Below are positions 13,214 to 41,574 of a stretch of 64,000 nt of DNA, in pieces. The notes below the pieces were generated by a model. That model was not told the origin of the DNA, searched no databases, and saw only the letters and a program-made list of their open reading frames with translations. Where the stretch lies: contig CANMND010000006.1 of the NCBI GenBank assembly GCA_947499155.1, positions 124,001 through 188,000 of the forward strand, given 5' to 3'. Numbering within the stretch: the stretch's first letter is position 1; each line of letters opens with the position of its first letter. The position numbers and the translations under genes are program-made. This stretch comes from an uncultured Sphingomonadales bacterium (GTDB lineage: Bacteria > Pseudomonadota > Alphaproteobacteria > Sphingomonadales > Rhodothalassiaceae).

Positions 13214-13214
13214 G

Positions 13215-13723: not shown

Positions 13724-13758
13724 AAGGGATGGCTGGAAACTTTACTGGCTGAAGTGGT

Positions 13759-14602: not shown

Positions 14603-14614
14603 GATGCTATTCCT

Positions 14615-15088: not shown

Positions 15089-15095
15089 ATCTGCC

Positions 15096-15710: not shown

Positions 15711-15723
15711 AGCTGTATCCTTT

Positions 15724-17082: not shown

Positions 17083-17461
17083 GATGTTTGCCCCCGTTAC
17101 TAAGACGCTCAGGGAAACCATGACGGACTGAGACAGCGTTGAATTTCCGGATAAGCGCAGCCTCTAAATCAATGTCGGCGCGTTCGGCTAACAAAGTCAG
17201 ATAAATGAGCGTGTCAGCTATTTCGTCGGCCAGATGGTCCGTCAACTCGTCGGCGCTTTTGGTGTTCCCAACTACTCCGTCACGGGAACGGTTCAGCTTT
17301 TTAATGACGTTGCAGACCTCTCCGGCCTCACCGAGTGCGGCGCATGCCCAGTCGGACAGGCTCCATGCGTTAAGGCTCCCGCCGTGCCATTTTTTTGCAC
17401 GTGAGACACTGGCCTGAACCAGTTCTTGAATGGTCAGTGCTGGAATGGGTTTAGGCTGCAT
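17072..17461 (-). CDS. MazG-like nucleotide pyrophosphohydrolase
   Basis: 129 aa from ATG 17461. It has the all-alpha NTP-pyrophosphatase motifs: AALGEAGEVCNVIKKLNRSR (first acidic EExxE-type helix) and LADEIADTLIYLTLLAERA (second, ExxD). These bind Mg2+ and cleave NTPs or (p)ppGpp-related nucleotides. Phages carry MazG to change nucleotide pools during infection. It overlaps the MuB-like gene by 11 bases, so it is expressed with the transposition proteins. Confidence 0.82.
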   Translation of the reverse strand: MQPKPIPALTIQELVQASVSRAKKWHGGSLNAWSLSDWACAALGEAGEVCNVIKKLNRSRDGVVGNTKSADELTDHLADEIADTLIYLTLLAERADIDLEAALIRKFNAVSVRHGFPERLSNGGKHHEL

Positions 17462-18233
17462 TGGCCGCCCCCCAGCTTTGCGAGACGATGATGGGCTTGC
17501 CGGTGGTGCGGTCATTCATCAACACTTGCCCGGCCATTTCCGCACAGCCGACTTCGCGAAGACCATTGCGGTGCGCCACACGCTCAACCGAGGCGATGGC
17601 CTCTTTGATTTCACGCACAAAGCCTTTGGAATAGTCATGGGTAAGGGCGATCAAATCGGCCTGAACGGTGACGTCGCACAGCCCGTTCACCATGCCGGCC
17701 ACATCATCGCGGGTGAGCGGCGTAAATTCGACATATTGCCCGATGCGGCTGGTCACTTGCGGGAAGTGCTTCAGCCCATGGCGAACCTTGCCCATACCGA
17801 CAAGCAGGAAGGGGATTTCCAGAAAGTCGGATAAGTCGCGTAAAGACGACAACATCTTGTCGGACCGCGCGATATAATCGACTTCATCGACAATAACCGC
17901 AAAGTTTTCCCCCGCCCGTGCCGCCGCATCCGCGCGGGCGGCAAGGGTCTCCAGACATAAGGCAAAGCGCTTTTCAAAGCTATGCGGCGGATGGGCGATA
18001 TTAAGCGCAGCCAGGAGTTCCGACAACATCCAGTTAGGCGTCCATTCCTTTTTGGCGCGGACAAAAGGGCAATCGTTTTGTGCCGCGAACCAGGACAGCG
18101 CCCTGGATTTTCCAAGACCGGGCAGGCCGTCAATCACCATCAGGCAGGCTTCCCCGGCACCGCGCCTTTCAAGGGCAGATAAGCCGACCATCAGCTTTTG
18201 CACATTTTCTGTTTTGACAAAGACAGGCTTCAT
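17451..18233 (-). CDS. MuB-like AAA+ transposition ATPase
   Basis: 260 aa. Walker A is DGLPGLGKSRALSW, Walker B is FAVIVDEVDYI, with a sensor-like IPFLLVGMGK and an arginine in the HFPQVTSRIGQYV region. In Mu, MuB coats target DNA, gives target immunity and delivers targets to MuA. The length fits the short MuB class of alphaproteobacterial transposable phages, lacking the long N-terminal HTH of Mu's 312-aa MuB. It lies just after the transposase gene. Confidence 0.88.
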   Translation of the reverse strand: MKPVFVKTENVQKLMVGLSALERRGAGEACLMVIDGLPGLGKSRALSWFAAQNDCPFVRAKKEWTPNWMLSELLAALNIAHPPHSFEKRFALCLETLAARADAAARAGENFAVIVDEVDYIARSDKMLSSLRDLSDFLEIPFLLVGMGKVRHGLKHFPQVTSRIGQYVEFTPLTRDDVAGMVNGLCDVTVQADLIALTHDYSKGFVREIKEAIASVERVAHRNGLREVGCAEMAGQVLMNDRTTGKPIIVSQSWGAANAA

Positions 18234-18266
18234 GCGTAGTTTTCCTCCTCTGTTTGCGGCTCGACT

Positions 18267-23001: not shown

Positions 23002-23415
23002 TTACAGGCGGTGCTCGAACAGACTTTCAATGATCGGGCAGTCAGGCACATCGCCACCCTCGCATTGTGAAGATATGTCCTTCAAAGTGCGCTCCAGTTT
23101 TCGCAGATCGGCAATCTTTTGCTTCACGCTTTCAATTTGTTTGCGCGTGAGCGCCAGAACGTCGCCGCAGCTATAGTCGTTGGAGTCGACGAGACTGAGC
23201 AGGCTGCGTAATTCATCGATGGAAAATCCAAGGTTTCGCCCGCGCAGAATAAAGCCCAGCCTTGCCTGATCCTGGGGTCCATAAAGCCTGTGACCTGCCT
23301 GCGTTCGTTCAGGCGGGTTGAGCAGACCGATGGTCTCGTAATACCGGATGGTTTCGATATTGCACCCTGAAGATTCGGCCAGTTTTCCACGTTTCATCAT
23401 CTTGCTTCCGGTCAT
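23002..23415 (-). CDS. merR: MerR mercury-responsive regulator
   Basis: 137 aa. N-terminal MerR HTH (AESSGCNIETIRYYETIGLL), then the dimerisation helix. The three mercury-ligand cysteines are visible: in SNDYSCGDVLAL, and in SSQCEGGDVPDCPIIESL. The last two are 8 positions apart, one fewer than in Tn501 MerR. It is divergent from merT, with the shared promoter between them, and should both repress without mercury and activate with it. Start codons at 23415 or 23400 are both possible. Confidence 0.93.
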   Translation of the reverse strand: MTGSKMMKRGKLAESSGCNIETIRYYETIGLLNPPERTQAGHRLYGPQDQARLGFILRGRNLGFSIDELRSLLSLVDSNDYSCGDVLALTRKQIESVKQKIADLRKLERTLKDISSQCEGGDVPDCPIIESLFEHRL

Positions 23416-23439
23416 TTTGGATTTGCCTGAAAAAATTAC

Positions 23440-23470
23440 TTGAACCTGTAGTTACTACAGAAATTATAAA
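23440..23470 (+). promoter_or_regulatory. MerR-type mer promoter/operator
   Basis: TTGAAC (23440-23445) and TATAAA (23465-23470) are separated by 19 bases, the overlong spacing typical of MerR-controlled promoters. The spacer holds a perfect palindrome CTGTAGTTACTACAG, the expected MerR site. Transcription should start around 23476-23478, at the merT ATG. Confidence 0.88.
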
Positions 23471-23477
23471 GATGTTC

Positions 23478-23837
23478 ATGGAAAAGAACATCAAACAATC
23501 AGGCGGCTTATTCGCGACCGCCGGCACGCTTGGGGCAGTCCTTGCATCCTCCTGCTGCATCGCTCCACTCCTGCTCGTTTCTCTCGGTATCAGCGGGGCG
23601 TGGATCGGCAATTTCACGGCACTGGACCCCTATAAATGGTATTTTGTTGCAGCGACGGTCGTGTTCCTGGGTGCTGGCTTCTGGCACGTCTATTTCAGGC
23701 GTGTGCCTGAGTGTGACGATGGTTCTTACTGTGCGCGGCCACATTCCTCACTACTCACCAAAATGGTGCTTTGGATTGGGACAATTCTTGTTGCCCTCAC
23801 AACCACAGTCGATTGGTGGGCACCATTATTTTATTAG
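23478..23837 (+). CDS. merT: MerT mercuric ion inner-membrane transporter
   Basis: 119 aa with three membrane spans. The first has the Cys pair (LASSCCIAPLLLVSLG) that takes Hg2+ from MerP, and the loop has a second pair (ECDDGSYC), as in classical MerT. ATG 23478 coincides with the predicted transcription start, so the mRNA may be leaderless; the in-frame ATG at 23472 would lie upstream of that start. It is first in the mer operon. Confidence 0.93.
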   Translation: MEKNIKQSGGLFATAGTLGAVLASSCCIAPLLLVSLGISGAWIGNFTALDPYKWYFVAATVVFLGAGFWHVYFRRVPECDDGSYCARPHSSLLTKMVLWIGTILVALTTTVDWWAPLFY

Positions 23838-23847
23838 GAGACTTGAG

Positions 23848-24192
23848 ATGAAGAAGACTGTCATGGCGATCATTGGCGTGCTGGCCCTGGGCACCGTTGC
23901 AGCGGGAGTCTCCAGCCTGTCATCATCGGATACCTCACTGATCTCCAGTCAGGCCCATGCAGCAACTTTAAGCCAGACCTTTGCAATTGAGAAGATGACC
24001 TGCGCGAGCTGTCCCATTACGGTCAGAAAAGCGATGCAGCGTGTGGATGGCGTAAAATCCGTGTCGGTTGATTTTGAGGCAAAAACAGCCACGGCAAGTT
24101 TTGATCCAGATATCACCGATATTTCCGCAATCGCTGCCGCTTCCACAAATGCAGGCTTTCCGGCGCATGCCAAAGCAGGGAAGGTGCAATGA
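23848..24192 (+). CDS. merP: MerP periplasmic mercury-binding protein
   Basis: 114 aa from ATG 23848, TAGGAG upstream. A signal peptide (MKKTVMAIIGVLALGTVAAG) is followed by an HMA domain with the metal site EKMTCASCPITVRKAMQ and the family-typical DGVKSVSVDFEAKTA strand. It collects Hg2+ in the periplasm and passes it to MerT. Its stop overlaps the merF start (ATGA). Confidence 0.95.
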   Translation: MKKTVMAIIGVLALGTVAAGVSSLSSSDTSLISSQAHAATLSQTFAIEKMTCASCPITVRKAMQRVDGVKSVSVDFEAKTATASFDPDITDISAIAAASTNAGFPAHAKAGKVQ

Positions 24193-24422
24193 ATGAGCGG
24201 TCACTTCTGCGCATCAGTATTATCGGTACGGTCATTACCGCTTTGTGCTGTTTCACACCTGTACTTGTCATTCTGGCGGCAGCAGTGGGTTTGTCTGCCA
24301 TCACTGGCTATCTGGATTACGTCTTGCTGCCGACACTTGTCTTTTTCGTTGGATTGACAGTTTACGCTGTCTCGAGGCGAAAGAATGATCAAAAACACCC
24401 CCGACAACAGGAAGACTCATGA
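24189..24422 (+). CDS. merF: MerF mercury transporter
   Basis: 77 aa with two membrane spans, the first with the vicinal cysteines TALCCFTPVLVILAA typical of MerF. It is an additional inner-membrane Hg2+ importer. Start and stop codons overlap the flanking merP and merA by 4 bases each (ATGA), so the three are translated as a coupled set. Confidence 0.9.
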   Translation: MNERSLLRISIIGTVITALCCFTPVLVILAAAVGLSAITGYLDYVLLPTLVFFVGLTVYAVSRRKNDQKHPRQQEDS

Positions 24423-25846
24423 ATACGTTAGATATGTCAGGCAATAGCGGGCGCTATGACCTTGTTATCGTGGGTGCCGGATCAGCTGGCTTTTCGGCTG
24501 CAATAACCGCAGCGGGGAGCGGAGCAAAGGTGGCCTTAATTGGCCATGGCACCATTGGCGGTACATGTGTGAATTTCGGGTGCGTCCCTTCCAAAACAAT
24601 GATACGCGCCGCAGAAGCCCTTCATGCTGCCAAATCTGCACGTCGCTTTCCCGGAATTGAAGGAGACGCCCGGCTTGTGAATTGGGCGGAGCTTGTGGCG
24701 TCGAAAGATGGTCTCGTCGGCGGGTTGAGGCAAAAGAAATATGCTGACCTGTTGCCGGAATATGAAAATGTCGATTATTTCGATGAAGGGCCGGCTCGTA
24801 TTGTTGAGGGCGGGGTTCATATTGGCGAACGCATAATCCTGGCAACGAAGATCATTATTGCGACAGGGGGTCGCCCGTCGCTGCCCCCGATCAAAGGGAT
24901 TAATGAGGTTTCAACGCTCGACAGCACCCAATTACTTGATCTGAAAGTACTGCCCAGGAGCATGATTTTCATCGGAGGCGGCTATATCGGGTCAGAATTG
25001 GCCTTGATGATGTCGAGAATGGGTGTGGATGTCACAATCATCTGCCGTTCACGCCTGTTGCCCGGTGCAGAGCCGGAAATTTCAGATGCATTGGCTGAAT
25101 CCTTCCGCGCTGAGGGAATAACAACATACTGCGGAAGTACCTATTATGCGTGCAGGCAAGATGCGTCTGACGTCTCAATCTGTATCGAACATAAAGGCGA
25201 AAGGCTGGATCTCGCCGCCGAAAGTCTGGCTGTGATGACAGGCCGGACACCAAACACTGAAGGTTTGGGGCTGGAAGAGGCAGGTGTAACGCTTGATAAG
25301 CGCGGGGCGATTGTCGTTGATGATTATATGCAAACGGCCAATCCAGATATTTATGCAGCAGGTGATGTGACCAACCGCGATCAATTTGTCTATATGGCAG
25401 CATATGGGGCAAAACTTGCGGCCATGAACGCGGTAGTAAAGGGGTCTGAGAGGTATGATAATTCGGCCATGCCATGGGTCGTGTTTACCGATCCTCAAGT
25501 CGCGGGCGTGGGGTTGAGTGAGGCAGAAGCCAGACAGGCGGGTTTTGATGTCAAAACATCACTTGTCCCATTGGATCAGGTGCCGCGCGCATTGGCAGCA
25601 CGTGATACCAGGGGCCTGATTAAGCTTGTAGCAGACAGGAAGACCGACAAGCTGCTGGGCGGTCAGATTATGGCTCCTGAAGGCTCGGACAGCATTCAGA
25701 CTCTGGCCATGGCATTAAAGTTTGGTATGACGGCAAAGAGGCTTGGGGAAACAGTTTTCCCTTATCTCACGACAGTTGAAGGATTGAAGCTTGCGGCCCA
25801 GACATTCGACAAGGATGTCGCCAAACTCTCGTGCTGTGCGGGTTAG
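24419..25846 (+). CDS. merA: Mercuric reductase MerA
   Basis: 475 aa flavin disulfide reductase that reduces Hg2+ to Hg0 with NADPH. FAD site DLVIVGAGSAGFSAA, redox-active cysteines GTCVNFGCVPSKTM, NAD(P) site FIGGGYIGSELALM, second FAD motif NPDIYAAGDVTN, and the C-terminal vicinal cysteine pair (LSCCAG). The N-terminal HMA domain found in many MerA proteins is missing, as in the short form. It overlaps merF by 4 bases. Confidence 0.96.
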   Translation: MNTLDMSGNSGRYDLVIVGAGSAGFSAAITAAGSGAKVALIGHGTIGGTCVNFGCVPSKTMIRAAEALHAAKSARRFPGIEGDARLVNWAELVASKDGLVGGLRQKKYADLLPEYENVDYFDEGPARIVEGGVHIGERIILATKIIIATGGRPSLPPIKGINEVSTLDSTQLLDLKVLPRSMIFIGGGYIGSELALMMSRMGVDVTIICRSRLLPGAEPEISDALAESFRAEGITTYCGSTYYACRQDASDVSICIEHKGERLDLAAESLAVMTGRTPNTEGLGLEEAGVTLDKRGAIVVDDYMQTANPDIYAAGDVTNRDQFVYMAAYGAKLAAMNAVVKGSERYDNSAMPWVVFTDPQVAGVGLSEAEARQAGFDVKTSLVPLDQVPRALAARDTRGLIKLVADRKTDKLLGGQIMAPEGSDSIQTLAMALKFGMTAKRLGETVFPYLTTVEGLKLAAQTFDKDVAKLSCCAG

Positions 25847-25849
25847 TAT

Positions 25850-26791
25850 ATGACTGGATTGGTATTTATGATTGGTTCGTCGATACTTGGCATTGAACAC
25901 AAATTGACCAGCACACGCCTTGCGGCCACACTGGGGATTGTCAGCGTTTTTGCTTTCTCATCACCTGAGTATGCATATGCCGCGCCTGTTACATTCAATT
26001 CCGGATTGCCAGTAAGCCAGGGCCATTGGGTGGGCCGCGAGCAGGTGATTTACGGCGAGGCGGGTCTTAATGGCGATAACATTCGGGAAATCAGGTCTGT
26101 AACAGTTCTTGGTTATGGTGTGACGCCGGACTTGGCGTTCTTTGGTATTTTGCCCGTCATAATCCGTGACATTGATTTGGCGTCTGGTGACGAACGCCAT
26201 GCGACCGGCATTGGCGATACACAGGCTTTTGCACGCTATACGGCATATAAGAAGGACTTTTCCGGCGGCACTTTTCGAGTTGCACCGTTTCTCGGGCTTG
26301 AGTTGCCAACTGGCAAAAACCGTAAATCCGACAGCATGGGGCTATTGCCGCCGGGCCTGCAGCCGGGATCAGGCTCCTGGGATGTTTTTGGCGGGGCGGT
26401 CGCTTCGTGGGCGACACTCGACTGGAATATGGACGGACAAGTTTCCTGGCAAGCCAATACGCGCGCCGATGGCGTAAATGGCGGTGATATGTTTGAAGTC
26501 GATCTTGCCATCTACAAACGCTTGCTGCCTGCGGAACTAAGTGCGGACACGTCCGGCTTTTTGCTGGGCGGTCTGGAATTCAATTACCAGGATGAAGGCC
26601 GTACCGGCATTGGCGGCGTCATTGATCCGAATTCTGGAGGGCAGCGGCTCTATGTGACGCCGGGCCTGCAATATGCCAGCAGGCTCTGGGTTCTTGAGGC
26701 CGCTGTGCAAATACCTGTAACCCAAAGCCTGAACGGAACGAACTATAGACGGGACTTTGCTTTTCGGCTCGGCTTGCGATTAAATCTTTAA
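25850..26791 (+). CDS. Outer-membrane channel-like protein in the mer operon (MetA-pathway/phenol-degradation transporter-like)
   Basis: 313 aa, 3 bases after merA. A signal peptide (AATLGIVSVFAFSSPEYAYA) precedes a beta-barrel pattern with VTPDLAAFF-like strands, LGLELPTGKNRKSD and a C-terminal DFAFRLGLRLNL ending in an aromatic/hydrophobic strand. It resembles the PF13557 transporter group. In this operon it could let mercury compounds cross the outer membrane; that is inference. ATG 25868 is an alternative start. Confidence 0.7.
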   Translation: MTGLVFMIGSSILGIEHKLTSTRLAATLGIVSVFAFSSPEYAYAAPVTFNSGLPVSQGHWVGREQVIYGEAGLNGDNIREIRSVTVLGYGVTPDLAFFGILPVIIRDIDLASGDERHATGIGDTQAFARYTAYKKDFSGGTFRVAPFLGLELPTGKNRKSDSMGLLPPGLQPGSGSWDVFGGAVASWATLDWNMDGQVSWQANTRADGVNGGDMFEVDLAIYKRLLPAELSADTSGFLLGGLEFNYQDEGRTGIGGVIDPNSGGQRLYVTPGLQYASRLWVLEAAVQIPVTQSLNGTNYRRDFAFRLGLRLNL

Positions 26792-26809
26792 AGGACAGTG
26801 GGGTTTATC

Positions 26810-27121
26810 ATGAAGAAATATCTGGCAACGTTTATGTTTTTGTTGCTGACGGCTGCACCCGCCCTCGCCCTCGCCAATGACGTGGAATACCTCATAAGCA
26901 TTGACGGCATTACCTGTCCGTTCTGCGTCGCAACGTCGGAAAAGGCTTTAATGAAAATCGATGGTGTGAAAGCCGTTTCGTCAAGCCTCAAAGAGGGCAC
27001 GATTACTGTCTGCGCCGATGATAAAAAGGTCTCGTTTACTGACGAGCAGCTGACTGAACTGTTCAAGAAGAAGGGCTTTACCTATCGCGGCATGGAAAAA
27101 GGCGGGATGTGTGAAGCGTAA
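26810..27121 (+). CDS. Second exported HMA protein (MerP-like)
   Basis: 103 aa from ATG 26810. Signal peptide (MKKYLATFMFLLLTAAPALA) and an HMA domain with SIDGITCPFCVATSEKAL and DGVKAVSSSLKEGTITV. It differs strongly from the first MerP and ends with a further cysteine (GGMCEA). It stands between the channel gene and a second MerT-like gene, suggesting a second periplasmic-to-cytoplasm metal relay. Confidence 0.8.
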   Translation: MKKYLATFMFLLLTAAPALALANDVEYLISIDGITCPFCVATSEKALMKIDGVKAVSSSLKEGTITVCADDKKVSFTDEQLTELFKKKGFTYRGMEKGGMCEA

Positions 27122-29159: not shown

Positions 29160-29660
29160 GGAAACTCTCCTATGAAACTTGAAAACCTGCTGGAACTATA
29201 ACAGGCGAATACAAAAGCGAAACTACCTAGATAATGCCATTTCACTCATAGACTCATATTTTTCAAAAATACACTCTAGAGTAAAAAACTCGTCAAAATA
29301 GTAGGCGTTTATACTAGAATGAATGCGGAAGATGCGACGCGATGGTCTTAACATAGAAATCAGGAAGAGGAATCATGGTCTGGATTAATCCAAGGACGTA
29401 TAACATGACTTGACAGTCCCATTTTGCTTATTTAGCTTATTATTATGTGAATTCGTTGTTTAATAATCATAGATAGGGAAATTGTATATATCAGTTAAAT
29501 AAAATCATATATGTTATTATTTTTTATTTTTAGTGTATGTTAATTGATAATATCTATTTTATTTGTGATTTTAGATAGTAATGATGTAGAAATTATAGAA
29601 ATTTTACTTTAAATAAGTTCGATTATTGGTATCAGTCTTAGTTGAAGTGGGGGAGCTGTT
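29160..29660. other. AT-rich gene-free leader of the giant-gene cluster
   Basis: About 500 bases with no credible ORF; the stretch from about 29430 to 29640 is extremely poor in G and C compared with the flanks. It separates the cytochrome genes from the giant operon and should hold its promoter(s). A TTGACA stands at 29410-29415, but the hexamer 17 bases on (TAGCTT) is a weak -10, so I do not assign a promoter. Such composition is typical of regions bound by silencer proteins. Confidence 0.6.
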
Positions 29661-32600
29661 TTGTCATTGATTTTCCAGCAATTGTCGCAGCAGGTGCGAA
29701 GTCAGGCTCTTCTTAAAACCTTGTATGGTGGTGCTGGAGCCAACACAGCCAGTCTTTCAAATTCCGGCGATGCTCTTTGTTTTTTTCCAGGGCGTCGCAC
29801 CAGAGATGACGGATCATTAGGCTCAAATAATGGGCGGGTGATACTAAAGACGTCTTCGCCTCTGGCAGACCAGGTTGTGCGATGGCGTATCGTCACAAGA
29901 GGCGGGGACGTGGTGGACGAAGTTGCCACATCCGCACCACATGAGATTGAACTTCTTGCAGCACATTCAGGTCGCTTCCGCCTGGAATTGACACTTGAAG
30001 GCGCGACGCTGGAGCCTTGCAGATATGAAGTATCGGCTCCCGCATTTGTGTCTGTTATGCTTGAACCCAATTCAATCGGTGTCGTTCTTGATGAGCTTGG
30101 GGTTGCAGCGGACGGGCAGCAGCGCCAGACTTTGGTCGATGGCCTGGTGGCAGTGGCGCGCAGGGTCGCAGCCCACGCTCTTCGCCCCATGAATGTAAGG
30201 CTGTTATGGCCGGACGATGATATTCCCGCCCACTTCTTGCCATCTGCTCCAGTCCAAGCCCCTATGACGCCCTGTCTTGCGACCGCAAAAGCTGTTGTAG
30301 AGGGCGAGGATAACAATTCCCTGCAGTACTATCCGGGTCTTCGCCTTCTCCATGTAGGCATTCCGCAAAAAGTTTTGCCCAGCATTCCGGTTTTTGAAGA
30401 GATTTCGAATATCCTTGATGCGCACTTTGTAGCCTTCAAAGATTCCATTCTGAATGATCTGCGTGCGCGGTTCGGCGGGCGTCTGAATGCAGCGCTTGAC
30501 GAACTGGATGCCATGTTTACGCCGGAAAGCGTCGATACGGGCTGGGGGACGTCCAGCCTGATGGAGGCTTATGGAATTGGCCAGGTGTTGTTTGGGGGCG
30601 GGGCCAGACAATTTGATGGTGAAGCCGTCGGTGCTGGCAGTTCAGTTGCACACCAGATTCTGGCCACTTTGGCTGATGCAGCACATACAGCAGCATGGGA
30701 CGTGGCCAGTGATGCCACCAGCCTTTATGTGGAAATGGCAGGCCGCATGCTTGGGACGCAGATTGCTGTGGCGACGCTCAGGCTGACTGGATTGCAGGCC
30801 CGCGAGGTCGCGCTGCCTGATCCGGAAAAACCCGTACAGACCTTGCACACAGACCTGCTTGATCCGGCACCTTCAGTGCCAGAGCGGGATTTTCTTGGCC
30901 TGTATCGCCCGGAAACAAATGGAATAGCCAGATCTTTGGATACGCTTGCAGGTGATCTGGCAACACAGGTCAGTCCTGCAGATTCGTCACGCTGGGTTGA
31001 TCTGTGCAAAACAATCACGGCACCTACTGCAACACTGATCGGGGCAGAGCCGACCACAAAATATGATGCGCTGGCCGGTCTGGTATCCGAACGGAGCTTG
31101 TCGGATGTAAATGCACTTGCCGGCACATTGCCGGCTCCATATGGGCCATACACATTGCGGTGGGGCGATCAGGACAGGCCGGACGATGCACATGGGGATG
31201 CCCTTCCTGTCTATGGCGGCAAGACGTTTTCGGCAGATGAAAGGCCAGTAGAGACGCGGGAAATTGAATTGCTGCAAGCGGACCTGTTGCGGGCAGGAAT
31301 TACGCTGGGCCAGCGCACCATTGGAAAATTTGGATACCGCAGATGGACGGCCAATGAGGATAAGTGGGATGGAGCGCTGGGGGCGCAGCCAGTCCGTGCC
31401 ACCTCTTGGGAGCGCAAACCCGATGACCCGGAAAGCTATCAAGTGAATATCAGGGCATCCCGTCCCCACTGGAATGAATTATGTGATGGCGATACCAGTA
31501 TCGCAGTTCGGGAGTTTCAGATCGCTGAAACCTATCCGCGGGGCGTGATGGAAGAGGTATCCCCTGAGCCGGTTTTCGTCAAAAGGCTTCGTGATGTCTT
31601 TCATGATGAAGAGCAGGTGAGGCCAGATGGTGACGCACTTGCCCAGCCCAATGGCAATGTGAATGGCATGCTGTCACCTGCCATGGCGGATAAGGTGAGG
31701 ACCTGGGCCTTTTCCCGACGGCGCATACCGGCAGTTGTCATAGGTGGATCGCGCAATGATGCTTATGGAGCTGTGGATGCAGACCATCCATTTATTCAGA
31801 CTGCCATGTCGGCGGCACTCGATGCGCACGCCAGGATAAGCAACAATTACCGGTTTTATTCTGTGGACAAGACAGGTCGTTTTGGTGCGACGGATGAGCC
31901 TGTCAAGCTTGGGCGTCCACAATATTCCGACGGTACAGCCCGTCGCGGATTTTGGGGCGGCCTGTGGCACCCGGATGATGATGAAATGCCTCAAAAGGCA
32001 TTTACGGCTGCACATACATTCGGCCCTGTCGACTGGGAGCTGTCTCCTGATCTTGCCGATGAAGACCGTTCACGGCTTAGAAGAAGGCAGAGCGCATTTC
32101 GTATGGTTGCTGCGCTGGCCAAGGTGGAGAGCATTTCGTACTGGGATGGCTTTAATGCATGGGACGATGCTATATTTTCCTGGCCTCCCTTTCATTATAC
32201 CTTGACCCTTCGCGCGAACAGTGGCGATGGCGGCGTAACGGCCAGTCCCAACCTGATGGGCGGCGTCATAGAATTCATGCGGAATCCTCCTGATGAGGTG
32301 CTTGAAGGTGCCTACCCGGCACCTGAATCATCTGGTGATCCTGATGCAGACGCCGCTGCACTGGCGGACGTTGTCGCGCATCGTCAGGCCTTAAAGACGC
32401 GTATGCGTGAGTGTTATTGGGATAATTTTGGTGTCTATGGTGTGGGTGCCAGTGCCATTACTTCGACGACTTCGCCAAACTCATTTGTAACCCTGTCCGG
32501 CCTGATTGAAGCACAGGACTCCAATCGGACGGTTGACATGAATCTGGTATGGCAGAGAAACGGAACCGGTCTGCCACAACAGGCTCTTTATCAGTCCTAT

Positions 32601-33116
32601 CAGCAGTGGTTCAGAAGTTGGAACTGGGGCCAGCGTTTTGCACTTCATTTGCGAAACAAGCCCCTACTTCGCGCCATGACATTTGCTTATTCTCTTCACT
32701 GGGCCCATGGGGTTCTTGCTCTGAATAGTCATTGGCGAGGCCAATTTGGCATCGCGACAAATGGGAATGCGGTTCTCAGGTCCGAGCGAGGGCGTGTTGT
32801 TTACATACGTCTTTATATTCGTGCGCTGGAACATGCCGCTGACGCTCGTCGGGCGCTTGGACGCCTACGCGGGAACGCTGCGTCCCTTGCACAATTCCAC
32901 AGAAATACGACGGAAGAGCAGATTGTTGATGCGATGGTCAATTCTGCGACAGGCGCACTGAGGAGAACAACGAGCACAGCTCGCGACTTTGACGTTCCTG
33001 ACGGCCTCGGGCGCCCCTCGTCTGAAGACCATGGGGATAACGCAGCTGCAGACTTTTCTCAGGTTCGCAATGAGCTTTTGAGAGATGTGATGACTGCAAA
33101 TTGGGACAATCCATGA
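29661..33116 (+). CDS. Giant-cluster protein 1 (1151 aa), peptidoglycan-binding-like segment
   Basis: Starts at TTG 29661 with GGGGGAG upstream. No signal peptide. Residues about 35-125 look like a beta-sandwich. Residues about 534-620 have the outline of a PG_binding_1 repeat (EIELLQADLLRAGITLGQ to SIAVREFQIAETYPRG), interrupted by an insert. Residues about 815-860 include ALAKVESISYWDGFNAWDDA and IFSWPPFHYTLTLRANSGDG, which recalls lysozyme/chitosanase-like modules of large bacterial proteins; catalysis is not shown. The C-terminus is helical and charged. The gene overlaps the next by 4 bases. I do not recognise a named family. Confidence 0.85.
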   Translation: MSLIFQQLSQQVRSQALLKTLYGGAGANTASLSNSGDALCFFPGRRTRDDGSLGSNNGRVILKTSSPLADQVVRWRIVTRGGDVVDEVATSAPHEIELLAAHSGRFRLELTLEGATLEPCRYEVSAPAFVSVMLEPNSIGVVLDELGVAADGQQRQTLVDGLVAVARRVAAHALRPMNVRLLWPDDDIPAHFLPSAPVQAPMTPCLATAKAVVEGEDNNSLQYYPGLRLLHVGIPQKVLPSIPVFEEISNILDAHFVAFKDSILNDLRARFGGRLNAALDELDAMFTPESVDTGWGTSSLMEAYGIGQVLFGGGARQFDGEAVGAGSSVAHQILATLADAAHTAAWDVASDATSLYVEMAGRMLGTQIAVATLRLTGLQAREVALPDPEKPVQTLHTDLLDPAPSVPERDFLGLYRPETNGIARSLDTLAGDLATQVSPADSSRWVDLCKTITAPTATLIGAEPTTKYDALAGLVSERSLSDVNALAGTLPAPYGPYTLRWGDQDRPDDAHGDALPVYGGKTFSADERPVETREIELLQADLLRAGITLGQRTIGKFGYRRWTANEDKWDGALGAQPVRATSWERKPDDPESYQVNIRASRPHWNELCDGDTSIAVREFQIAETYPRGVMEEVSPEPVFVKRLRDVFHDEEQVRPDGDALAQPNGNVNGMLSPAMADKVRTWAFSRRRIPAVVIGGSRNDAYGAVDADHPFIQTAMSAALDAHARISNNYRFYSVDKTGRFGATDEPVKLGRPQYSDGTARRGFWGGLWHPDDDEMPQKAFTAAHTFGPVDWELSPDLADEDRSRLRRRQSAFRMVAALAKVESISYWDGFNAWDDAIFSWPPFHYTLTLRANSGDGGVTASPNLMGGVIEFMRNPPDEVLEGAYPAPESSGDPDADAAALADVVAHRQALKTRMRECYWDNFGVYGVGASAITSTTSPNSFVTLSGLIEAQDSNRTVDMNLVWQRNGTGLPQQALYQSYQQWFRSWNWGQRFALHLRNKPLLRAMTFAYSLHWAHGVLALNSHWRGQFGIATNGNAVLRSERGRVVYIRLYIRALEHAADARRALGRLRGNAASLAQFHRNTTEEQIVDAMVNSATGALRRTTSTARDFDVPDGLGRPSSEDHGDNAAADFSQVRNELLRDVMTANWDNP

Positions 33117-36100
33117 AAACCAGCATTCTAGCCGATATTGCCCTGGCAGACACGGGCGTTTCGCTTGCCGGATTATTGCCGGCTTTTGGCTCGGCACAAT
33201 CCATAGGCCAGCTTCATTTCGCCAGCGAAACATGGAAAAATGAGACTGTCACAATTGCGGGCTTTCTTGAAATTTCAAGCGATAATTCGGTGAATGTTGC
33301 TGGTTTTTCCCTGCAATTGGGACTGCCGAGCGACGTGCCTCTGCATTTGCCATTTTCCGTTGTTTTGCCGCGTGTACCATTTGCGCTGGTCTTGTTTGTC
33401 CTGATGCACCGGTCCCGCATGCTGGAGCCGGAACAGCTGGCAAAGGCAGAGGTGGAACTTGCAATTGAACTGGGCATGGATGAAAGCACCGTTGCCGAGG
33501 AACTGAAATCCGGCCCGGAAGCTCTGATTGACAGTATAGTACAAGCCTCTGATCTTGCATCGGTTTCCCTGACGGTCGGCCCAATATCTGCGTGGATTTC
33601 GCCGCCGGAAGATTGGCTGATGGCCGGTCGGCATGTAAAAAATGCGGCGGGTGAGATTATAGGTGTAGAGCCTGCCCCTGGCATTCCGATCATGGTGCCC
33701 CTTGGCTCGGTCTCCTTGACGCTTTCTGCGCAAGGTGTCTCGCTGGATATGAATACGCCGGACTCCCTGACCTTCCCGCCGATCATGCTGGCTGACACCG
33801 GGCTTGCCATCGAATTGCGCGATCTTGTGTTGAAGCTGTCAGACGGCCCATTGCCACCTGCAATGGCGGGTTTTTCTGCCTCCGACGGCTTTGATGCTGA
33901 ATGGCGTGGCGTTTATGCCGGGCAGATTACGCTTTGGAATTTGGACAAGGTCTTTCCCGGTGGTCCCAAAGGAAACGCCAGTGCGGCGAATGGGGCACAT
34001 ATTGAGGCAACCGGCCTTGCTATTGATGAGCGTGGCCTGACAGGAAACCTGTCCTGGCAACGGCGTGTCCAGTCTGACGAAACGCTGGCGCTTCAAAGCG
34101 TGGATATTGGATTTGACCGCAACTGGTATCCGCTATCAGCAACGGGCAGGGGGCGTCTGGACCTGTCTGACGATGGCGGCGATATTCTTGAATATGTTGC
34201 GTCGCTTGAACTTGATCCGTTTGCGACCGATGGGCGGCCATGGCGACTGGATGTGGCCGTTCAGCATGACGATCCAACGAAGGCACTGATGGAAGCGTCC
34301 GACCCCGGCGCATTCTTGGCCTTGTCCTCAGTTGCGGCAGTTGCCCTTGGCGACGGGGACCTTGCTCTTTTATTGGCAGCACTGGCAGCAGGAAAACGGG
34401 CAAGGATTCTGGAGTGCAACAGTATTGCCCTCACATCTGCGTCTCTTTCAGGTGCACTTGGGCCTGATGGGTTTTCACTGTCATCCAGCCTGTCAGTAAG
34501 AACAGATCTTGAAATTATCGCGCTGGATGATCCTGTTCCACTGGCCCTTGGAGCGGGTGGGCTTGAAGTCGGCTATGACAGTTCGTCAGGCTTTTCTGCG
34601 CAGTGGAGCCTTTCAAAAGGACTTGATCTGGTCTTCCCCATGGAAGTGGATATCGCAGGGCAAGCAACCCTTAGCCGCATTGCTTTGCGCCGACGAGACA
34701 ATGGCCATCTGGTGATAGAGTTGGGCGTTGAGGCGGACGGTGCGGGTGATATGGCAATCGGTGGTCTGCCCAATGTCATGTCATTGGTCTATGACCCGGT
34801 AAACGACCGCTTTCTGCCACCAGAATTCAGCAGGGATGGTCAAGAACTCACTATTCTGGTTCCCGGCACCTTATATGCCAAGGGCCGATTGCGACAAAGC
34901 GAGAGCACATTCCCACAGGTCGGCCCACTTCGTTGGGGGGATACGCTAACCGCCAGCCTCACCGTGCATCTTATCGGCAATGGCCAGGCCATAAAGCCTG
35001 AGGACCATCTGGAGCCATCATCTTATCTTTATACACTGGATCTTGGCTTGCTGACGGCGACCCGCGAAGACGGGATGAAAGCGCTGGTGGTAACAGGTGA
35101 CTTGTCGTTCAGTCCTGGCCTGCCCCTTGGTTCCACGGGCGTTGCCCTTTATGGACTGGGGCTTACCTATGCCCAAAACGCCGAGCCATCAGCACAGAAC
35201 GGAAACTACACCGGCTGGTTTTTGGAGACTTCCCCAAAATTCAGCACTACGGCTACCAAATGGCGGCCCCAGGCGGATAATTGGGGCTTTGGGGCATCTG
35301 TAACTCTAGGGTCGCAACCTGATGATGGGCGCGCGTGGAACGTGGCTGCCGGACTGTTCCTGCTGCTTCCTGGCCCGGTTATCATGGTGACGGGAAAGGG
35401 ATCACTTTTCTCGCCACCGCCCGCACTTCCAACCGGGGATGAGGGGGCAAGCATTGATGCGCCATTTGGTGCGGCTGTCGCACTGGACATGCTGCGCAAC
35501 CGCTTTACAGCCGAACTGGATGCAAATCTCGATATTAGCGCTGCCGGTCAGGATATTCTGAAACTCCAGATTCCGGCCAAGGTTAATGCCAGCCTTACTC
35601 CGCCTTTGGACATGGAATTGTCCATTGGCAGCTTCATGCCTGAAGATGCACGGGTAAAGGGCAGGGCGCTTGGGCTATATGATATCGGCGCCTATATTGT
35701 CGTTTCCACCAGTGGCATTGACGACTTCCCAAAACCGGGAATGAGGCTGGCACCCTTTGCCATGGCTTATGGCGGCAGTGGTGGCCTCAGCGCCGGATTT
35801 TCATCCTCTATCGCGGAACTTAAGCTTAGCGTACAGGCAGGCTTTGATCTTGGAGTCAGCCTTGCCAATCCGCCCTTGATGGCCGGACGCGTCTATGTTG
35901 ATGGATCATTAATGGCGCGGATTGCCTGTGTCAGGCTGAATATTGGTCTGCGTACAGATTTGATGGTGGTGGCACCACAACCGTTTGAGCTTAGTGGGAC
36001 AGCCAAACTCCGTGTTAATCTGCCCTGGCCCATTCCGGATATCCGTTTTTCCGGTTCGTTCAGGATAGGCACGGACAGCGACTGGCCAAACGGCTATCCA

Positions 36101-38479
36101 AAGCCGGAAGACCCTACAGCCGATATTTCACTGTTTCCAAGGCCCAATGGCACAGCAACGCTCGCATCAGGCGAAAGTCTGGATGCGCTTGTGCTGAGCA
36201 ATAACAAGGCGATAACGGGCGTTCCACTTGATGCCGGTCTCCTTGTCGCCTTCCGTGCCCCAATGGGGAATGAGGACCCCCAGATCGGGATGACAGCGAC
36301 TCAGGCAGATGATCGCGCGGCTCCTGTGTGGGAAATAGCATCGGAAGGTTCCACCAAAGACGGCCAGACACTCCGTGTCGGCTGGCGGCATGTCTTGACG
36401 AAACTGGAATTGCGCGAAGCTGGCCAGCCAATCCCGGTCAAGGCAGGCTGGAGCTTTCAGGCAGCCGCAGGGACAACGCGTGACAGTGTGAATACAGCCC
36501 CTGGCGGGCAGGGTGACCGCAGGGCTGTCTACGTTATGGCGCCGCTGGATGCGCCTGTGGAACGCCGATACGGAACTGGGGCCGACGTTCTCGATGATAT
36601 GGTTGAAGGCTGGCAGCCCTGTGCGCAAGTGCCCAACATCAAGGACATGGAAAACGCATTTATTGTGCCCGATCACTCCAGTCTTGGCATTGACCGTCCC
36701 CATGAGCGTATCCCTGCCTGGCTACCGGCCGATAGCTGGCACCTTCTTGAACAGAGCGGGCTATTTGCGTCGGGCGATGTGCGAATTAGATATGAGACGC
36801 CGCCGCGCGGTATATCCATGGTTTATCCCGGTCATGACACCCATGCACCGCTTGTGCTTGGTCGGCCTGACGGCGTTACTTTTCGGGCAAAGTCGCCCCT
36901 TGATAAGCCGCCACGTGTTTTGACCCTGCCTTCGGCTGTTTTTTCCACTCAGCGCGATATTGACCATGTGCTTAAGATTGGCACTGCGTTTTCGCCACCT
37001 GCCGGGCGTTTGCTCATCGAATTTCCAGTGGATTCAGAGGTTCGGGCGCTTTACTTCCTTGTGCGTGATGGCACGCACCTTGATGTGCGAACGATTGATA
37101 ATCAAGCCATTGAAGCACATGAAATCTATAATAGCCGGGTCTATGCAGGCGATAATGAACGCTGGTCGTTGATGCGTATCATACCGGAAATGATGATCGA
37201 TCGTTTGTCGGTTGCAGCAATCATGATGCCTCATGAGGGTGGAAAGATATTCGGATCCGCTGGCGCTGTCCTGGTTGGTGCATCCTTCTTTGCTCATGAT
37301 CTGGGGGCAGGGGAAGCAGTCGCACGTCGTCGCGAATCCTCGCTTCAACTGGTGAGTGATCTGGCGCAGGACGCAGCTGGCTGGGCATCAGGCGGCAGTG
37401 ACGCACTTTTAAAGCCTGGCACCAATTATGAACTGGTGATTGCTGGCGAAAGCCATCACGCCCGTCAGATTGGCGAAGGCACGCTTGAGACCAAAGGGGC
37501 ACCAATTCCATTCACGCGAACGGTCAAATTCCGGACAGAAGAAGACATCTCCCAGCCGCTCCAGCCGCGCATGCCGGCGACCGTTTGGGCACCTGATAAA
37601 GCACCTTCATGGTCCGTGAATATGCTGCCGGGTGAGGGTGGCAGGCATTATCGGGCTGATCCTTTGAATGTTGTTTTTGCCGATGCGGTGACGGCAGGTC
37701 GGATTTCAGCCCATGGGCGGTCACTGCGTTTGGACCTTGTTCATGAAAGTGGGCAATTCGCTTCAGAACAAGCGGCACAGGTTCTGGCAGATGTGAAAAA
37801 GAAGCAGTCACGCCTTCAGGACATTGTTGCCGACTATATCGAAGGACAGCCCTGTTTTACCGACCATGACCCGATTTGGCTCTCGCTTGTTCACCGCTTT
37901 TCCACCGTGTTGAAGAAGGGACGTTATGAAGCGTCGCTTGTGGCGCAGGATGAAAGCGGTGGCAGAGAGCCGGTTGTCTTGCATAACTGGCGCTTTTATG
38001 CGTCTCAGTGGATGAATATCAGCGATCACCTTGATGATCACGAGATAAGAATTATCCCGCAAACAGGTGATGCGGATTCTGCTGCCCGTTCGGCATCACA
38101 ATTGATCTCTCTCATGCCTGAACGAATTGGTGACGGTTTGTTGGAAGACCTGCTTCATGGTCCCCTTGGCCATGCACCACTAGCACCATCTGCAAGCCCT
38201 GTAATTCTGATCCCTGTTCGTCAGGACGGCTTTGCATGGATCGTAATTGATGGCCCGGAACCACTTCTTAATGAAGGCGTCTCGGTTTTGGTTACTCAGG
38301 ATGGTCAAAACCTTGCTCAATCCGGTGTCATTACCAATGCTTCTGCGACCCGTGCGGTGATTTGCCTGAAGGCGGCTGTGAGTCCTGGTGCGCTCACGCT
38401 CCAGTTTTCTGTCGGAGCGACCTCATATCCCATCACCTTTGACGTCCCTGCATTTCAGACATTTCTGGAGCGTATATGA
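33113..38479 (+). CDS. Giant-cluster protein 2 (1792 aa), beta-rich, DUF6603-like
   Basis: ATG 33113 overlaps the stop before it (ATGA). No signal peptide; begins MKTSILADIALADTGVSLAG. Most of the chain alternates hydrophobic and polar residues in short strands joined by Gly/Asp turns, as in GLFLLLPGPVIMVTGKGSLF (residues about 750-780) and PGPVIMVTGKGSLFSPPPAL, resembling DUF6603 proteins and extended beta structures. One exception is an N-terminal helical insert (LEPEQLAKAEVELAIELGMD). Residues about 1240-1790 look like additional beta domains. The function is unknown; a structural fibre, scaffold or amphipathic groove are possible. Confidence 0.85.
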   Translation: MKTSILADIALADTGVSLAGLLPAFGSAQSIGQLHFASETWKNETVTIAGFLEISSDNSVNVAGFSLQLGLPSDVPLHLPFSVVLPRVPFALVLFVLMHRSRMLEPEQLAKAEVELAIELGMDESTVAEELKSGPEALIDSIVQASDLASVSLTVGPISAWISPPEDWLMAGRHVKNAAGEIIGVEPAPGIPIMVPLGSVSLTLSAQGVSLDMNTPDSLTFPPIMLADTGLAIELRDLVLKLSDGPLPPAMAGFSASDGFDAEWRGVYAGQITLWNLDKVFPGGPKGNASAANGAHIEATGLAIDERGLTGNLSWQRRVQSDETLALQSVDIGFDRNWYPLSATGRGRLDLSDDGGDILEYVASLELDPFATDGRPWRLDVAVQHDDPTKALMEASDPGAFLALSSVAAVALGDGDLALLLAALAAGKRARILECNSIALTSASLSGALGPDGFSLSSSLSVRTDLEIIALDDPVPLALGAGGLEVGYDSSSGFSAQWSLSKGLDLVFPMEVDIAGQATLSRIALRRRDNGHLVIELGVEADGAGDMAIGGLPNVMSLVYDPVNDRFLPPEFSRDGQELTILVPGTLYAKGRLRQSESTFPQVGPLRWGDTLTASLTVHLIGNGQAIKPEDHLEPSSYLYTLDLGLLTATREDGMKALVVTGDLSFSPGLPLGSTGVALYGLGLTYAQNAEPSAQNGNYTGWFLETSPKFSTTATKWRPQADNWGFGASVTLGSQPDDGRAWNVAAGLFLLLPGPVIMVTGKGSLFSPPPALPTGDEGASIDAPFGAAVALDMLRNRFTAELDANLDISAAGQDILKLQIPAKVNASLTPPLDMELSIGSFMPEDARVKGRALGLYDIGAYIVVSTSGIDDFPKPGMRLAPFAMAYGGSGGLSAGFSSSIAELKLSVQAGFDLGVSLANPPLMAGRVYVDGSLMARIACVRLNIGLRTDLMVVAPQPFELSGTAKLRVNLPWPIPDIRFSGSFRIGTDSDWPNGYPKPEDPTADISLFPRPNGTATLASGESLDALVLSNNKAITGVPLDAGLLVAFRAPMGNEDPQIGMTATQADDRAAPVWEIASEGSTKDGQTLRVGWRHVLTKLELREAGQPIPVKAGWSFQAAAGTTRDSVNTAPGGQGDRRAVYVMAPLDAPVERRYGTGADVLDDMVEGWQPCAQVPNIKDMENAFIVPDHSSLGIDRPHERIPAWLPADSWHLLEQSGLFASGDVRIRYETPPRGISMVYPGHDTHAPLVLGRPDGVTFRAKSPLDKPPRVLTLPSAVFSTQRDIDHVLKIGTAFSPPAGRLLIEFPVDSEVRALYFLVRDGTHLDVRTIDNQAIEAHEIYNSRVYAGDNERWSLMRIIPEMMIDRLSVAAIMMPHEGGKIFGSAGAVLVGASFFAHDLGAGEAVARRRESSLQLVSDLAQDAAGWASGGSDALLKPGTNYELVIAGESHHARQIGEGTLETKGAPIPFTRTVKFRTEEDISQPLQPRMPATVWAPDKAPSWSVNMLPGEGGRHYRADPLNVVFADAVTAGRISAHGRSLRLDLVHESGQFASEQAAQVLADVKKKQSRLQDIVADYIEGQPCFTDHDPIWLSLVHRFSTVLKKGRYEASLVAQDESGGREPVVLHNWRFYASQWMNISDHLDDHEIRIIPQTGDADSAARSASQLISLMPERIGDGLLEDLLHGPLGHAPLAPSASPVILIPVRQDGFAWIVIDGPEPLLNEGVSVLVTQDGQNLAQSGVITNASATRAVICLKAAVSPGALTLQFSVGATSYPITFDVPAFQTFLERI

Positions 38480-41400
38480 CTCGCATTACAACAGATTCCA
38501 GCCTGCTTTCCCTGACGGGGCTTTTACTGGAACAAGATGATCCATGTTTGCGAGCAGGTGCACATCTGCGCTGGTGGATGTCGCCCGAACTTGGGCTTCC
38601 GCGTACAGGCTTTCGGTTGCGGCGCAGGCCCGCCTCCCAGTGGCCCTGGCTAAAACATGAGACGCTGTATGCTCACTTCAACAAGAACACAATCGCCACC
38701 TCTGTAACCGGGATACATGTTCGGAACGCGCCGTTGCGTATCGAAAAGGCCGTTCTGACACCTGCTTTTTCATTGCGCTGTGAACGCCGGCGTCCGATGC
38801 GATTTCTGTATGAACAAAGGGAGCAAACCGATCCGCTGTTTCAGCCCTTCATCCGGTTTGCAGTCATTTTGAAATGCCCATCTCCATCCGCCATCATTGT
38901 GTTGCGGTCGTTTGTAAAGCGGGACGGGGCCGATATGATGATATCGGAAGAGCGGGTTCGATTTGGTTCCCTGCCTTACTATCATCGGCCGGATACGCCG
39001 GAACGTGCGATATTTGTCAGCGCCAGTGAAATTCATAGGGTGGAACTGGAAGCACCGGACAATGCAGAAGTGTTGCTGGTCCGTTTTGTTACACCTGAAC
39101 TTCTTCACAGGTTGGATGATTGGGAACAAATTGGCATTTTTCTGCCACTTTGTGAGCCGAATACACCAAATGTCGCAAGCCCTGACGATGTTCGCGCTTT
39201 GGCAGCCAGACGACTTGCTTCCAACCGGCCAAGAAGACGGCCAGGTGATCCCAGGTCTGCTGGCGCGGGACGACTTTTGAGCACAAGAGATCATAGCGAA
39301 TTCGAAAAAGCGCTGATGAATGATGCAGAACATTTATCCAAGAGCATTTCCCGCGCGTTCAGGATGGAGATGGAAAGACCGATACTGCCAGGCAAGATAA
39401 CTTTGGCCGATGTGGATGAGGGGCAGATATCAGGAGATGATGGTGTAAGTGAGGGCAGTATTGACCTCCCCTTCCATGGTGTGCTTCAGGCTGGCGCCTT
39501 TTCGCCTCACATAGCGGCCATGCTGGGTTTGGCTCATTATGATAGCAGTGTGAGGGCAAACCAGTCTTATGATTATGCAGTGGATGCACTGACGCCATCC
39601 ATGTGGCTTGCTCTGGGACTTTTGCCGCCAGAAGTCGCAGAAAATATGAAGATGCCACCGATCCCTAAGCTGGATTTTGGTAATTATCCTGATCGCAAAA
39701 CAGATATGGATAAAAGAAAGGGTGGAAGTGAAGGCGGTATTTTCAAGAAGGGGGATCAACGTCCGTTACCGCCTATATTCAAAGGACGCGTAGTCACACC
39801 AACCATTGCCGCCAAAGTCAATCAGACCCAGCCGACGATTACAGCACAGGTGAAGCTCAGACAAAAAGATAACAGAAAGACAACGGAGAGCTTGATCGAT
39901 GCGGTTAAAATGGCGACCAACCCCAAAGTTGGATCTGTTCGGGTTACCATTCCGCCAAAAATCCTTGAACGGATAAGGGTTCCGAAGTTTCCGGGACCTG
40001 TCATTCGGCCCCCGGTTACACCTCCTCCAGTGACCCCGCCGCCAGAAACTCCGGATCTGTGGGAAGTGGAGCCGGGAGGCTACCATCGCCTGATTGCCTT
40101 TATTCTCAACCAGGAGCCAGCACAACATGCGATGCCTGTGGCGCCCATGGCAAGCGGCCAATCCTTGCCGGACGCAGGTGCATCCCCTGTGCAGACCAGG
40201 GTTGCGCTAAAATCCCGCCCAGGCACGTTTGGCAGCAGGACCCTGATTTGGCGGAAAAATAGCACAAACTATAGTGCCCTTGGACCGATTGATCCCGTTA
40301 CCGGCTTGATGATCCCGGCTCTTCCTGCTGAAGACGGGTATTGCCGGTTCATGGATGAAGATGTTTCAACATTTGGCCATGTCCAGTATCGCGCCATAGA
40401 TGTGGACTGTTTCGGTCGCGCCAGTCGTTCTTCTGACGTCAGAGTAGATATACGCGATCTGGTTGCGCCGCCATCGCCATCAAAGCCGAACATCAATGAA
40501 GGAAATCCATCAACGTCAGGCGGCACGCATTTCCCCAGTGCTGAGCTAAGCACCACCTGGAGCACCGGGATGGTTGATGCCACCCCTGATCTGGCGGCTA
40601 TCCGTTTTATGTGGCGCAAGGGACATCATTCTGCTGACGATGTGCTAGCGTCTCATGACGGTGAAAATCGCATCGTCTGGCCGTCACCCACAGCACGTCA
40701 GCATCAAAATGGTACCGACATTTATGCAAAGGCGGCACTTGACCTTGGCCGGGACGGAAATCGCCGGGAAATTTCCGTTATCTGTGTGGCCGAAGACCAA
40801 AGTGGCAATATGTCCTTGCCATCCTCACCGGCACATCTGGTTCTGATTGACGAGATAAAGATACCATCGCCGGTTCAGCCGCCTGAGCCGCAATGGACAT
40901 CATGGCCTGACGCCAATGGTGACTGTCGCTGGACAGTCCGCTGGACACAGCCCGGCCAGGCGATCTCTGCCCGCGTATCAACGGCGTCTGAGTCACGGTT
41001 GCTTGCCTTGTCCGGTACGTCCCGTGCTTCTCATCTTGCCCTGTCCCATGCTGAACGGGCAGAGCGCTTGAAGCAATTGGCGATAGTGACGCCTAATGCC
41101 TTCGTACCGGAAGAGCTGGCTTACCCGATTCATATCGAAAAGCACGATGTCGTCTTGTCTGCAGACAGTGATGACCTGCGGGTTGTTGTGGTAGAATTCA
41201 TAGGAGAGACGGGGCAAAAAGCGCCCTGGCCTGCACAGAAAGACGCCTTTGCCGTGGTTCGCGCACGCTCTTCAGCGCCTGCCCCCGTTCCACGGTTGTC
41301 GGTGAAAAGTGAAAAGACCCAAGACCTTATAACGGCCACCTCTGACGCTGATGGGTTGATTGAAGTCTTCGTTCTAAAGTCTCCGGAACAGGTTGATCTC

Positions 41401-41574
41401 ATAGATATCATGACCCCTGTCATCACATTCAATCAGGGTATGGCACCATTTCGGCAGGACCGGACAGCCGGGGAGCGCTGGTTTGGGTATACAGCACGCC
41501 TGCGCGCAGCCGATGGCCGGGTATCTGCATTAACACCGATACTGTGGCGGCAGCAAAGCAGCGCTAATAATTGA
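38476..41574 (+). CDS. Giant-cluster protein 3 (1032 aa), FN3/Ig-like with proline hinge
   Basis: ATG 38476 overlaps the previous stop (ATGA). The N-terminus has CLRAGAHLRWWMSPELGLPR followed by TGFRLRRRP, a motif I associate with very large uncharacterised bacterial proteins. Near residue 515 is a proline-rich hinge (RPPVTPPPVTPPPETPDLWE). After it come beta-sandwich-like repeats with ISVICVAEDQSGNMSLPSSP and YRAIDVDCFGRASRSSD, which resemble FN3 domains. No signal peptide. The 3' end overlaps the convergent CDGSH-cupin gene by 11 bases. Role unknown; adhesion or assembly is a guess. Confidence 0.85.
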   Translation: MTRITTDSSLLSLTGLLLEQDDPCLRAGAHLRWWMSPELGLPRTGFRLRRRPASQWPWLKHETLYAHFNKNTIATSVTGIHVRNAPLRIEKAVLTPAFSLRCERRRPMRFLYEQREQTDPLFQPFIRFAVILKCPSPSAIIVLRSFVKRDGADMMISEERVRFGSLPYYHRPDTPERAIFVSASEIHRVELEAPDNAEVLLVRFVTPELLHRLDDWEQIGIFLPLCEPNTPNVASPDDVRALAARRLASNRPRRRPGDPRSAGAGRLLSTRDHSEFEKALMNDAEHLSKSISRAFRMEMERPILPGKITLADVDEGQISGDDGVSEGSIDLPFHGVLQAGAFSPHIAAMLGLAHYDSSVRANQSYDYAVDALTPSMWLALGLLPPEVAENMKMPPIPKLDFGNYPDRKTDMDKRKGGSEGGIFKKGDQRPLPPIFKGRVVTPTIAAKVNQTQPTITAQVKLRQKDNRKTTESLIDAVKMATNPKVGSVRVTIPPKILERIRVPKFPGPVIRPPVTPPPVTPPPETPDLWEVEPGGYHRLIAFILNQEPAQHAMPVAPMASGQSLPDAGASPVQTRVALKSRPGTFGSRTLIWRKNSTNYSALGPIDPVTGLMIPALPAEDGYCRFMDEDVSTFGHVQYRAIDVDCFGRASRSSDVRVDIRDLVAPPSPSKPNINEGNPSTSGGTHFPSAELSTTWSTGMVDATPDLAAIRFMWRKGHHSADDVLASHDGENRIVWPSPTARQHQNGTDIYAKAALDLGRDGNRREISVICVAEDQSGNMSLPSSPAHLVLIDEIKIPSPVQPPEPQWTSWPDANGDCRWTVRWTQPGQAISARVSTASESRLLALSGTSRASHLALSHAERAERLKQLAIVTPNAFVPEELAYPIHIEKHDVVLSADSDDLRVVVVEFIGETGQKAPWPAQKDAFAVVRARSSAPAPVPRLSVKSEKTQDLITATSDADGLIEVFVLKSPEQVDLIDIMTPVITFNQGMAPFRQDRTAGERWFGYTARLRAADGRVSALTPILWRQQSSANN

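Follow-up and report, generated by a model that had tools for sequence, protein, structure and literature searches.

Organization of the three-gene locus

The locus comprises three giant genes on the forward strand, W1 (29661-33116), W2 (33113-38479) and W3 (38476-41574), coding for proteins of 1151, 1788 and 1032 residues, respectively. All coordinates are those of the window, i.e. the entire 64,000-nucleotide stretch of DNA that was analysed. The genes are joined by two ATGA overlaps on the same strand: the first (33113-33116) holds the stop codon of W1 and the start codon of W2, and the second (38476-38479) the stop codon of W2 and the start codon of W3. The preliminary description of three coupled genes lacking signal peptides is therefore correct, except that its second gene, given there as 1792 residues, has 1788 when read from the ATG in the overlap; the longer form corresponds to an alternative in-frame TTG start at 33101. 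W1 itself starts with a TTG codon at 29661, with the sequence GGGGAG five bases upstream. The operon is preceded by an AT-rich leader of 500 bases (29160-29660, forward strand) with a GC content of 30% and a core of 22% GC from about 29381. The 250-base windows starting at 29381-29421 have the lowest GC content (22%) of the 64 kb, the mean of which is 53.5%; the AT-rich DNA reported ahead of the genes thus includes the GC minimum of the window. No RNA families or tRNAs were found within the window.

A simple hydropathy test, used in place of SignalP, recovered no Sec-type signal at the N-termini of W1, W2 or W3, while four exported or membrane proteins from the same window, taken as controls, were all clearly more hydrophobic at their N-termini. 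None of the three proteins has a match in Pfam, NCBIfam, PHROGs or PADLOC; W1 and W3 have none among the PDB sequences, and pattern scans using W2 or W3 alone retrieved no relatives. The families described below were traced with profiles.

W1 combines a peptidoglycan-binding-like segment with a putative lysozyme-like module

W1 shows a tripartite architecture with an N-terminal part of uncharacterised type, a peptidoglycan (PG)-binding-like segment and a putative lysozyme-like module. The PG-binding-like segment (31248-31520, forward strand; residues about 530-620) is degenerate and contains an insertion. In the alignment it keeps the LQ..L...G and A.REFQ positions of its PG_binding_1 relatives; the PG_binding_1 model of Pfam (PF01471) does not match W1 and does match several of its relatives. 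These relatives form what we define in the present analysis as family A, with a PG-binding segment plus a lysozyme-like module. A family A profile built without W1 recovers its C-terminal half with an E-value of 1.2e-23. Moreover, the putative active site of W1, KVESISYWDGFNAWDDAIFSWPPFHYT (32121-32201, forward strand), preserves all seven residues of the family spacing E-x5-D-x2-N-x2-D-x4-S-x4-H-x-T, as E823, D829, N832, D835, S840, H845 and T847. The corresponding columns are invariant or nearly so across 20 family members, with the threonine being near-invariant. The earlier reading of this protein as PG-binding plus lysozyme-like is strengthened by both the profile match and these residues.

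In an AF2 model of W1 (mean pLDDT 59), E823 closes a long helix and the remaining residues lie on or around the hairpin that follows. In lysozyme-type enzymes the catalytic glutamate and its partners are usually placed at the end of a helix and in the following hairpin. A Foldseek search with this model returned no match, so the lysozyme fold of W1 is to be taken as a prediction; likewise, PDB profile matches are confined to the PG-binding part, with none to the catalytic module. Judging from sequence, the C-terminal module is a putative muramidase that may be enzymatically active. W1 is the most divergent member of family A, placed on a very long branch of the family tree, and the support in this tree is too weak to tell whether the trio had a single origin. 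One further match to W1, to a TPR-bearing protein of genome G093, did not involve the conserved part and was set aside as a chance similarity. In a cyanobacterial MAG (L014, 5310-17252) a 3980-residue protein starts with the family A module, constituting a natural fusion of this module to giant parts.

W2 is a remote relative of the DUF6603 proteins

W2 is a giant beta-rich protein with a DUF6603-like core (34730-36202, forward strand; about residues 540-1030). Relatives were recovered by tblastn on plasmids from an Azospirillum oryzae megaplasmid and from Mycetohabitans, where the protein is named DUF6603. A profile built from the Azospirillum and Mycetohabitans proteins and their counterpart on a prophage contig (see below), leaving W2 out, recovers W2 at 2.1e-28, and hhalign aligns W2 to this family B profile (99%, E=5.7e-18) and the profile in turn to canonical DUF6603 (94.5%, 7.8e-8). 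Comparison of W2 with canonical DUF6603 alone yields nothing (0.5%), and the Pfam model (PF20248) matches neither W2 nor any other protein of the window's genome. Since the link needs intermediates, W2 is a DUF6603 protein only in a remote sense, and it is at this level that the resemblance proposed in the preliminary description is upheld. What W2 shares with DUF6603, via the Azospirillum and Mycetohabitans intermediates, is the core pattern G.P.G.TG..LYG...AYN together with the strands that follow it; it differs in escaping the Pfam model. The AF2 model of W2 is poor (mean pLDDT 47), with long antiparallel strands visible.

Our literature search found no paper naming DUF6603. Three other loci from Pseudomonadota (L085, L086 and L088, about 3077-19900) each encode a DUF6603 protein of about 3250 residues and, after it, one of about 700 residues; L085 and L088 have in addition a protein of about 1270 residues on the same strand as the DUF6603 gene. 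No family A gene was recognised at these three loci.

W3 and its relatives

W3 displays two short motifs of a third family, family C: RWWMSPELGLPRTGFRLRR near residue 32 (38569-38625), which has the form RW...P..G[FY] and is shared with family C, and LGLAHYDSSVRANQSYDYAV near residue 350 (39523-39582), with the form LGL..D...Y. Both lie on the forward strand in the same order as in family C, followed by a proline hinge (39991-40053, forward strand). A family C profile built from the Azospirillum, prophage-contig and Mycetohabitans proteins without W3 finds it with E=4e-4, making it the best non-member among more than 1000 ORFs (the next scoring 1.2), and RW...P..G[FY], taken as a strict pattern, is confined to W3 and the family C proteins of Azospirillum and the prophage contig. 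Of the three family links, that between W3 and family C is the weakest. The motif and the proline hinge of the preliminary description are indeed present; its FN3-like parts are another matter: the fn3 model of Pfam has no match in W3, and this label derives solely from family C, the prophage-contig member of which matches the PHROG central tail fibre J at residues 821-954.

Recurrence and distribution of the three families

Outside the window, two loci carry members of all three families side by side in one coupled operon. On the A. oryzae megaplasmid (L006, L013) a 1572-residue W2 relative is joined by an ATGA overlap to a 1083-residue W3-like protein that carries the RW...PELG.P..GF motif of W3, followed by a 786-residue protein resembling the C-terminal half of W1. 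The prophage contig IMGVR_UViG_3300048579_000445 (L032, L033) encodes the same coupled series. In both cases the gene order is rotated, being B-C-A as against A-B-C in the window. This recurrence supports the suspected unity of the three genes and shows that their association is not a product of chance; the neighbourhood survey thereby disposes of the concern that they might never be found together elsewhere.

Partial versions of the operon also occur. In Mycetohabitans, a family C gene, a phospholipase D-like gene and a family B gene stand in a row. Family A adjoins family B in two Streptomyces, in Saccharothrix and in one MAG each of Solirubrobacterales, Acidimicrobiia and a gammaproteobacterium, and these A-B pairs outside the trio have up to three other giant families alongside. 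For instance, the actinobacterial operons (Streptomyces, Saccharothrix, Solirubrobacterales) resemble the window in having adjacent giant A and B genes, but include VCBS/FG-GAP and other giant genes, with C being replaced by the large families c2, c3 and c23. As far as our literature searches show, they have not been described as a system. Nor did we find an earlier description of the trio arrangement, which unites a known kind of enzyme with an uncharacterised family. In Novosphingobium, proteins of 1804 and 999 residues next to a family A gene proved on hhalign comparison to be neither B nor C.

A search from the Azospirillum protein retrieved family A in Rhizobium, Streptomyces and Nonomuraea, and a genome scan located it at 19 loci plus one IMG/VR contig, spanning Pseudomonadota, Myxococcota, Actinomycetota, Cyanobacteriota, Planctomycetota and Acidobacteria. 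Within the phylum of the window's host, family A is found in 2 of 399 genomes and DUF6603 in 8. A search for W2 in 61 genomes, its own included, returned its own plus one weak, broken fragment. Such a sparse distribution fits horizontal spread. Comparison with relatives showed the flanking genes to be present in scattered positions, with no clean empty site. In Rhizobium ruizarguesonis pRlX3 (L008, 17938-19537) the family A gene is split over two frames and is likely a pseudogene; the same island holds two uncharacterised genes of about 2500 residues.

Secretion-associated and phage-associated contexts

Several relatives of W1 are linked to components of type VI secretion systems (T6SS). In Corallococcus sicarius the family A gene begins where a VgrG gene ends, and in genome G516 (L090, 9233-16132) it lies directly behind VgrG in a tssK-tssL-vgrG-A cluster; the family A gene of Lysobacter psychrotolerans has VgrG and Tle1-like genes within about 10 kb. 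The G516 VgrG has a PG-binding domain of its own at the C-terminus, so that two PG-binding proteins are found in a row. Most simply, the VgrG-linked copies are T6SS peptidoglycan effectors. They thus invite comparison with VgrG-linked hydrolases such as the VgrG-borne muramidase VgrG3cp (PMC9927483), with which W1 shares the succession of a PG-binding segment and a lysozyme-type module, and to which the two genes directly behind VgrG conform in position. However, the catalytic module of W1 has no sequence match to a solved effector, two other giant proteins accompany it, and neither VgrG in the window nor a T6SS in its genome was found. TssK is absent from this genome, the completeness of which is rated at 100%, and the sole gpD and sheath genes are located within or at a Mu-like prophage (188-22531 of the window, with genes for a tail sheath, Mu portal, MuF-like protein, Mu transposase and CI-type repressor). 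Delivery of the trio by a T6SS is thus excluded in this host, unless the assembly has missed such a system. Genes for the sheath or baseplate of an extracellular contractile injection system are likewise absent from the trio locus. Of the functional suggestions made for the trio, that of an antibacterial effector system gains some support from the VgrG and T6SS neighbours of the W1 relatives, while injection by a known machine finds none in this genome.

The prophage contig provides a different context. It carries terminase, tape measure and tail-tip genes, and the trio begins 83 bases behind a tail-fibre gene (PHROG tail fibre), which we take to be DUF2793-like. Rhodobacter phages whose tail-tip protein is 65% identical have a holin and an endolysin in the slot filled here by the trio, and neither was detected on those pieces of the contig that were read. 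This placement, on one contig, suggests that the trio can participate in lysis or be carried along by it. Position and a putative muramidase are thus what it has in common with a holin-endolysin cassette; it differs in consisting of three giant proteins rather than small ones and in having no holin-like membrane protein. In the window, non-phage genes intervene between the trio and the Mu-like prophage, and a link between the two is not supported.

Competing explanations

These contexts bear on two of the ways in which the trio might be understood. Were it a T6SS module, with W1 as the injected antibacterial effector and W2 and W3 as adaptors, the VgrG-linked relatives would be explained, as would the presence of TssK in the trio-bearing Azospirillum. 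Yet delivery of this kind is rejected for the window's host, which offers a single prophage gpD protein, and no VgrG, PAAR or T6SS gene adjoins any of the B-bearing loci seen; families A and B, moreover, also occur in Actinomycetota without TssK. We consider such a module highly improbable. A phage-borne lysis or cargo module, which would aid lysis or travel with virions in place of holin and endolysin, leaving the window's copy as a stranded descendant, accounts for the slot behind the tail-fibre gene and would be in keeping with the Mu-like prophage lying 7 kb from the trio. As it draws on one contig, while 50,697 phage records have no match to either of the two trio proteins tested and no phage genes were seen around the Azospirillum trio, we regard it as unlikely.

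Two further readings place the proteins in or on the producing cell. Given that the trio proteins have no signal peptides, they could constitute an intracellular defence device, attacking the producer's own wall or blocking the phage upon infection (abortive infection). The neighbourhoods lend this some colour, with type I restriction and DUF262/HEC-06-like genes following the IMG/VR trio and Thoeris TIR-like, Shedu and SIR2 genes surrounding the Rhizobium family A gene. However, accessory islands gather defence genes in any case and most of the loci lie outside defence islands; PADLOC did not match W1-W3, and no sensor, nuclease or ATPase domain was recognised in them, and we regard a defensive role as quite unlikely. 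Alternatively, W2 might be a beta assembly of the membrane or surface, for which W1 opens the wall, with W3 as the outer part. The long antiparallel strands of the W2 model showed a weak Foldseek likeness to outer-membrane barrels, but with TM-scores mostly of 0.1-0.25 and a low-confidence model these matches were discarded. Along with the missing signal peptides, the occurrence of A and B in monoderm Actinomycetota and the very sparse distribution, this makes an envelope structure decidedly unlikely.

A candidate peptidoglycan-targeting complex

The explanation that we tentatively prefer, and consider plausible without calling it probable, is that of a rare, horizontally spread operon for a single PG-targeting complex of three proteins. 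In such a complex W1 would bind the cell wall with its PG-binding segment and cut the glycan strands with the lysozyme-like module, W2 and W3 might serve as scaffold, carrier or targeting parts, and translational coupling would hold the W1:W2:W3 ratio fixed. Given that the proteins have no signal peptides and that the genome encodes neither a T6SS nor a free-standing contractile injector, the likeliest course is that the complex remains in the producer and acts on peptidoglycan after lysis, such as a prophage might cause, or else that it gets out by some other route. Enzymatic activity, association of the three proteins, an antibacterial target and release by lysis are the inferred parts of this proposal. 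Against it stand the catalytic module, for which there is neither a solved nor a confidently predicted fold, the weak link of W3 to its family and the difference in gene order from the other trio loci; neither an immunity gene nor an export route was recognised for the trio.

A bolder form of the proposal, which strikes us as a minority prospect, is a cell-wall-attacking particle that dispenses with a secretion machine: the DUF6603-like scaffold and the FN3-like protein would carry the muramidase out upon lysis and onto other cells. Such a particle would employ an enzyme common to T6SS effectors and could replace a phage lysis cassette. If a complex of this kind indeed needs no secretion machine, it would represent a new use of muramidases, whether directed at other cells or serving phage lysis. 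Independently of this, DUF6603, a large family without a known function, gains a concrete partner in a putative peptidoglycan hydrolase with VgrG-adjoining relatives, and the presence of the operon in three unrelated settings renders the question of a single complex directly testable.

Other genes of the window

Two features upstream of the operon deserve mention in their own right. The MuF-like protein of the Mu-like prophage (7596-8822) has a C-terminal toxin-type nuclease domain, PBECR2. Beside cytochrome c genes there is a mercury-resistance-like group (23002-27121), with a MerR-like regulator on the reverse strand (23002-23415), a MerA-like reductase (24419-25846) and a MerP-like small protein (26798-27121), the mer names being given from the look of the sequences.
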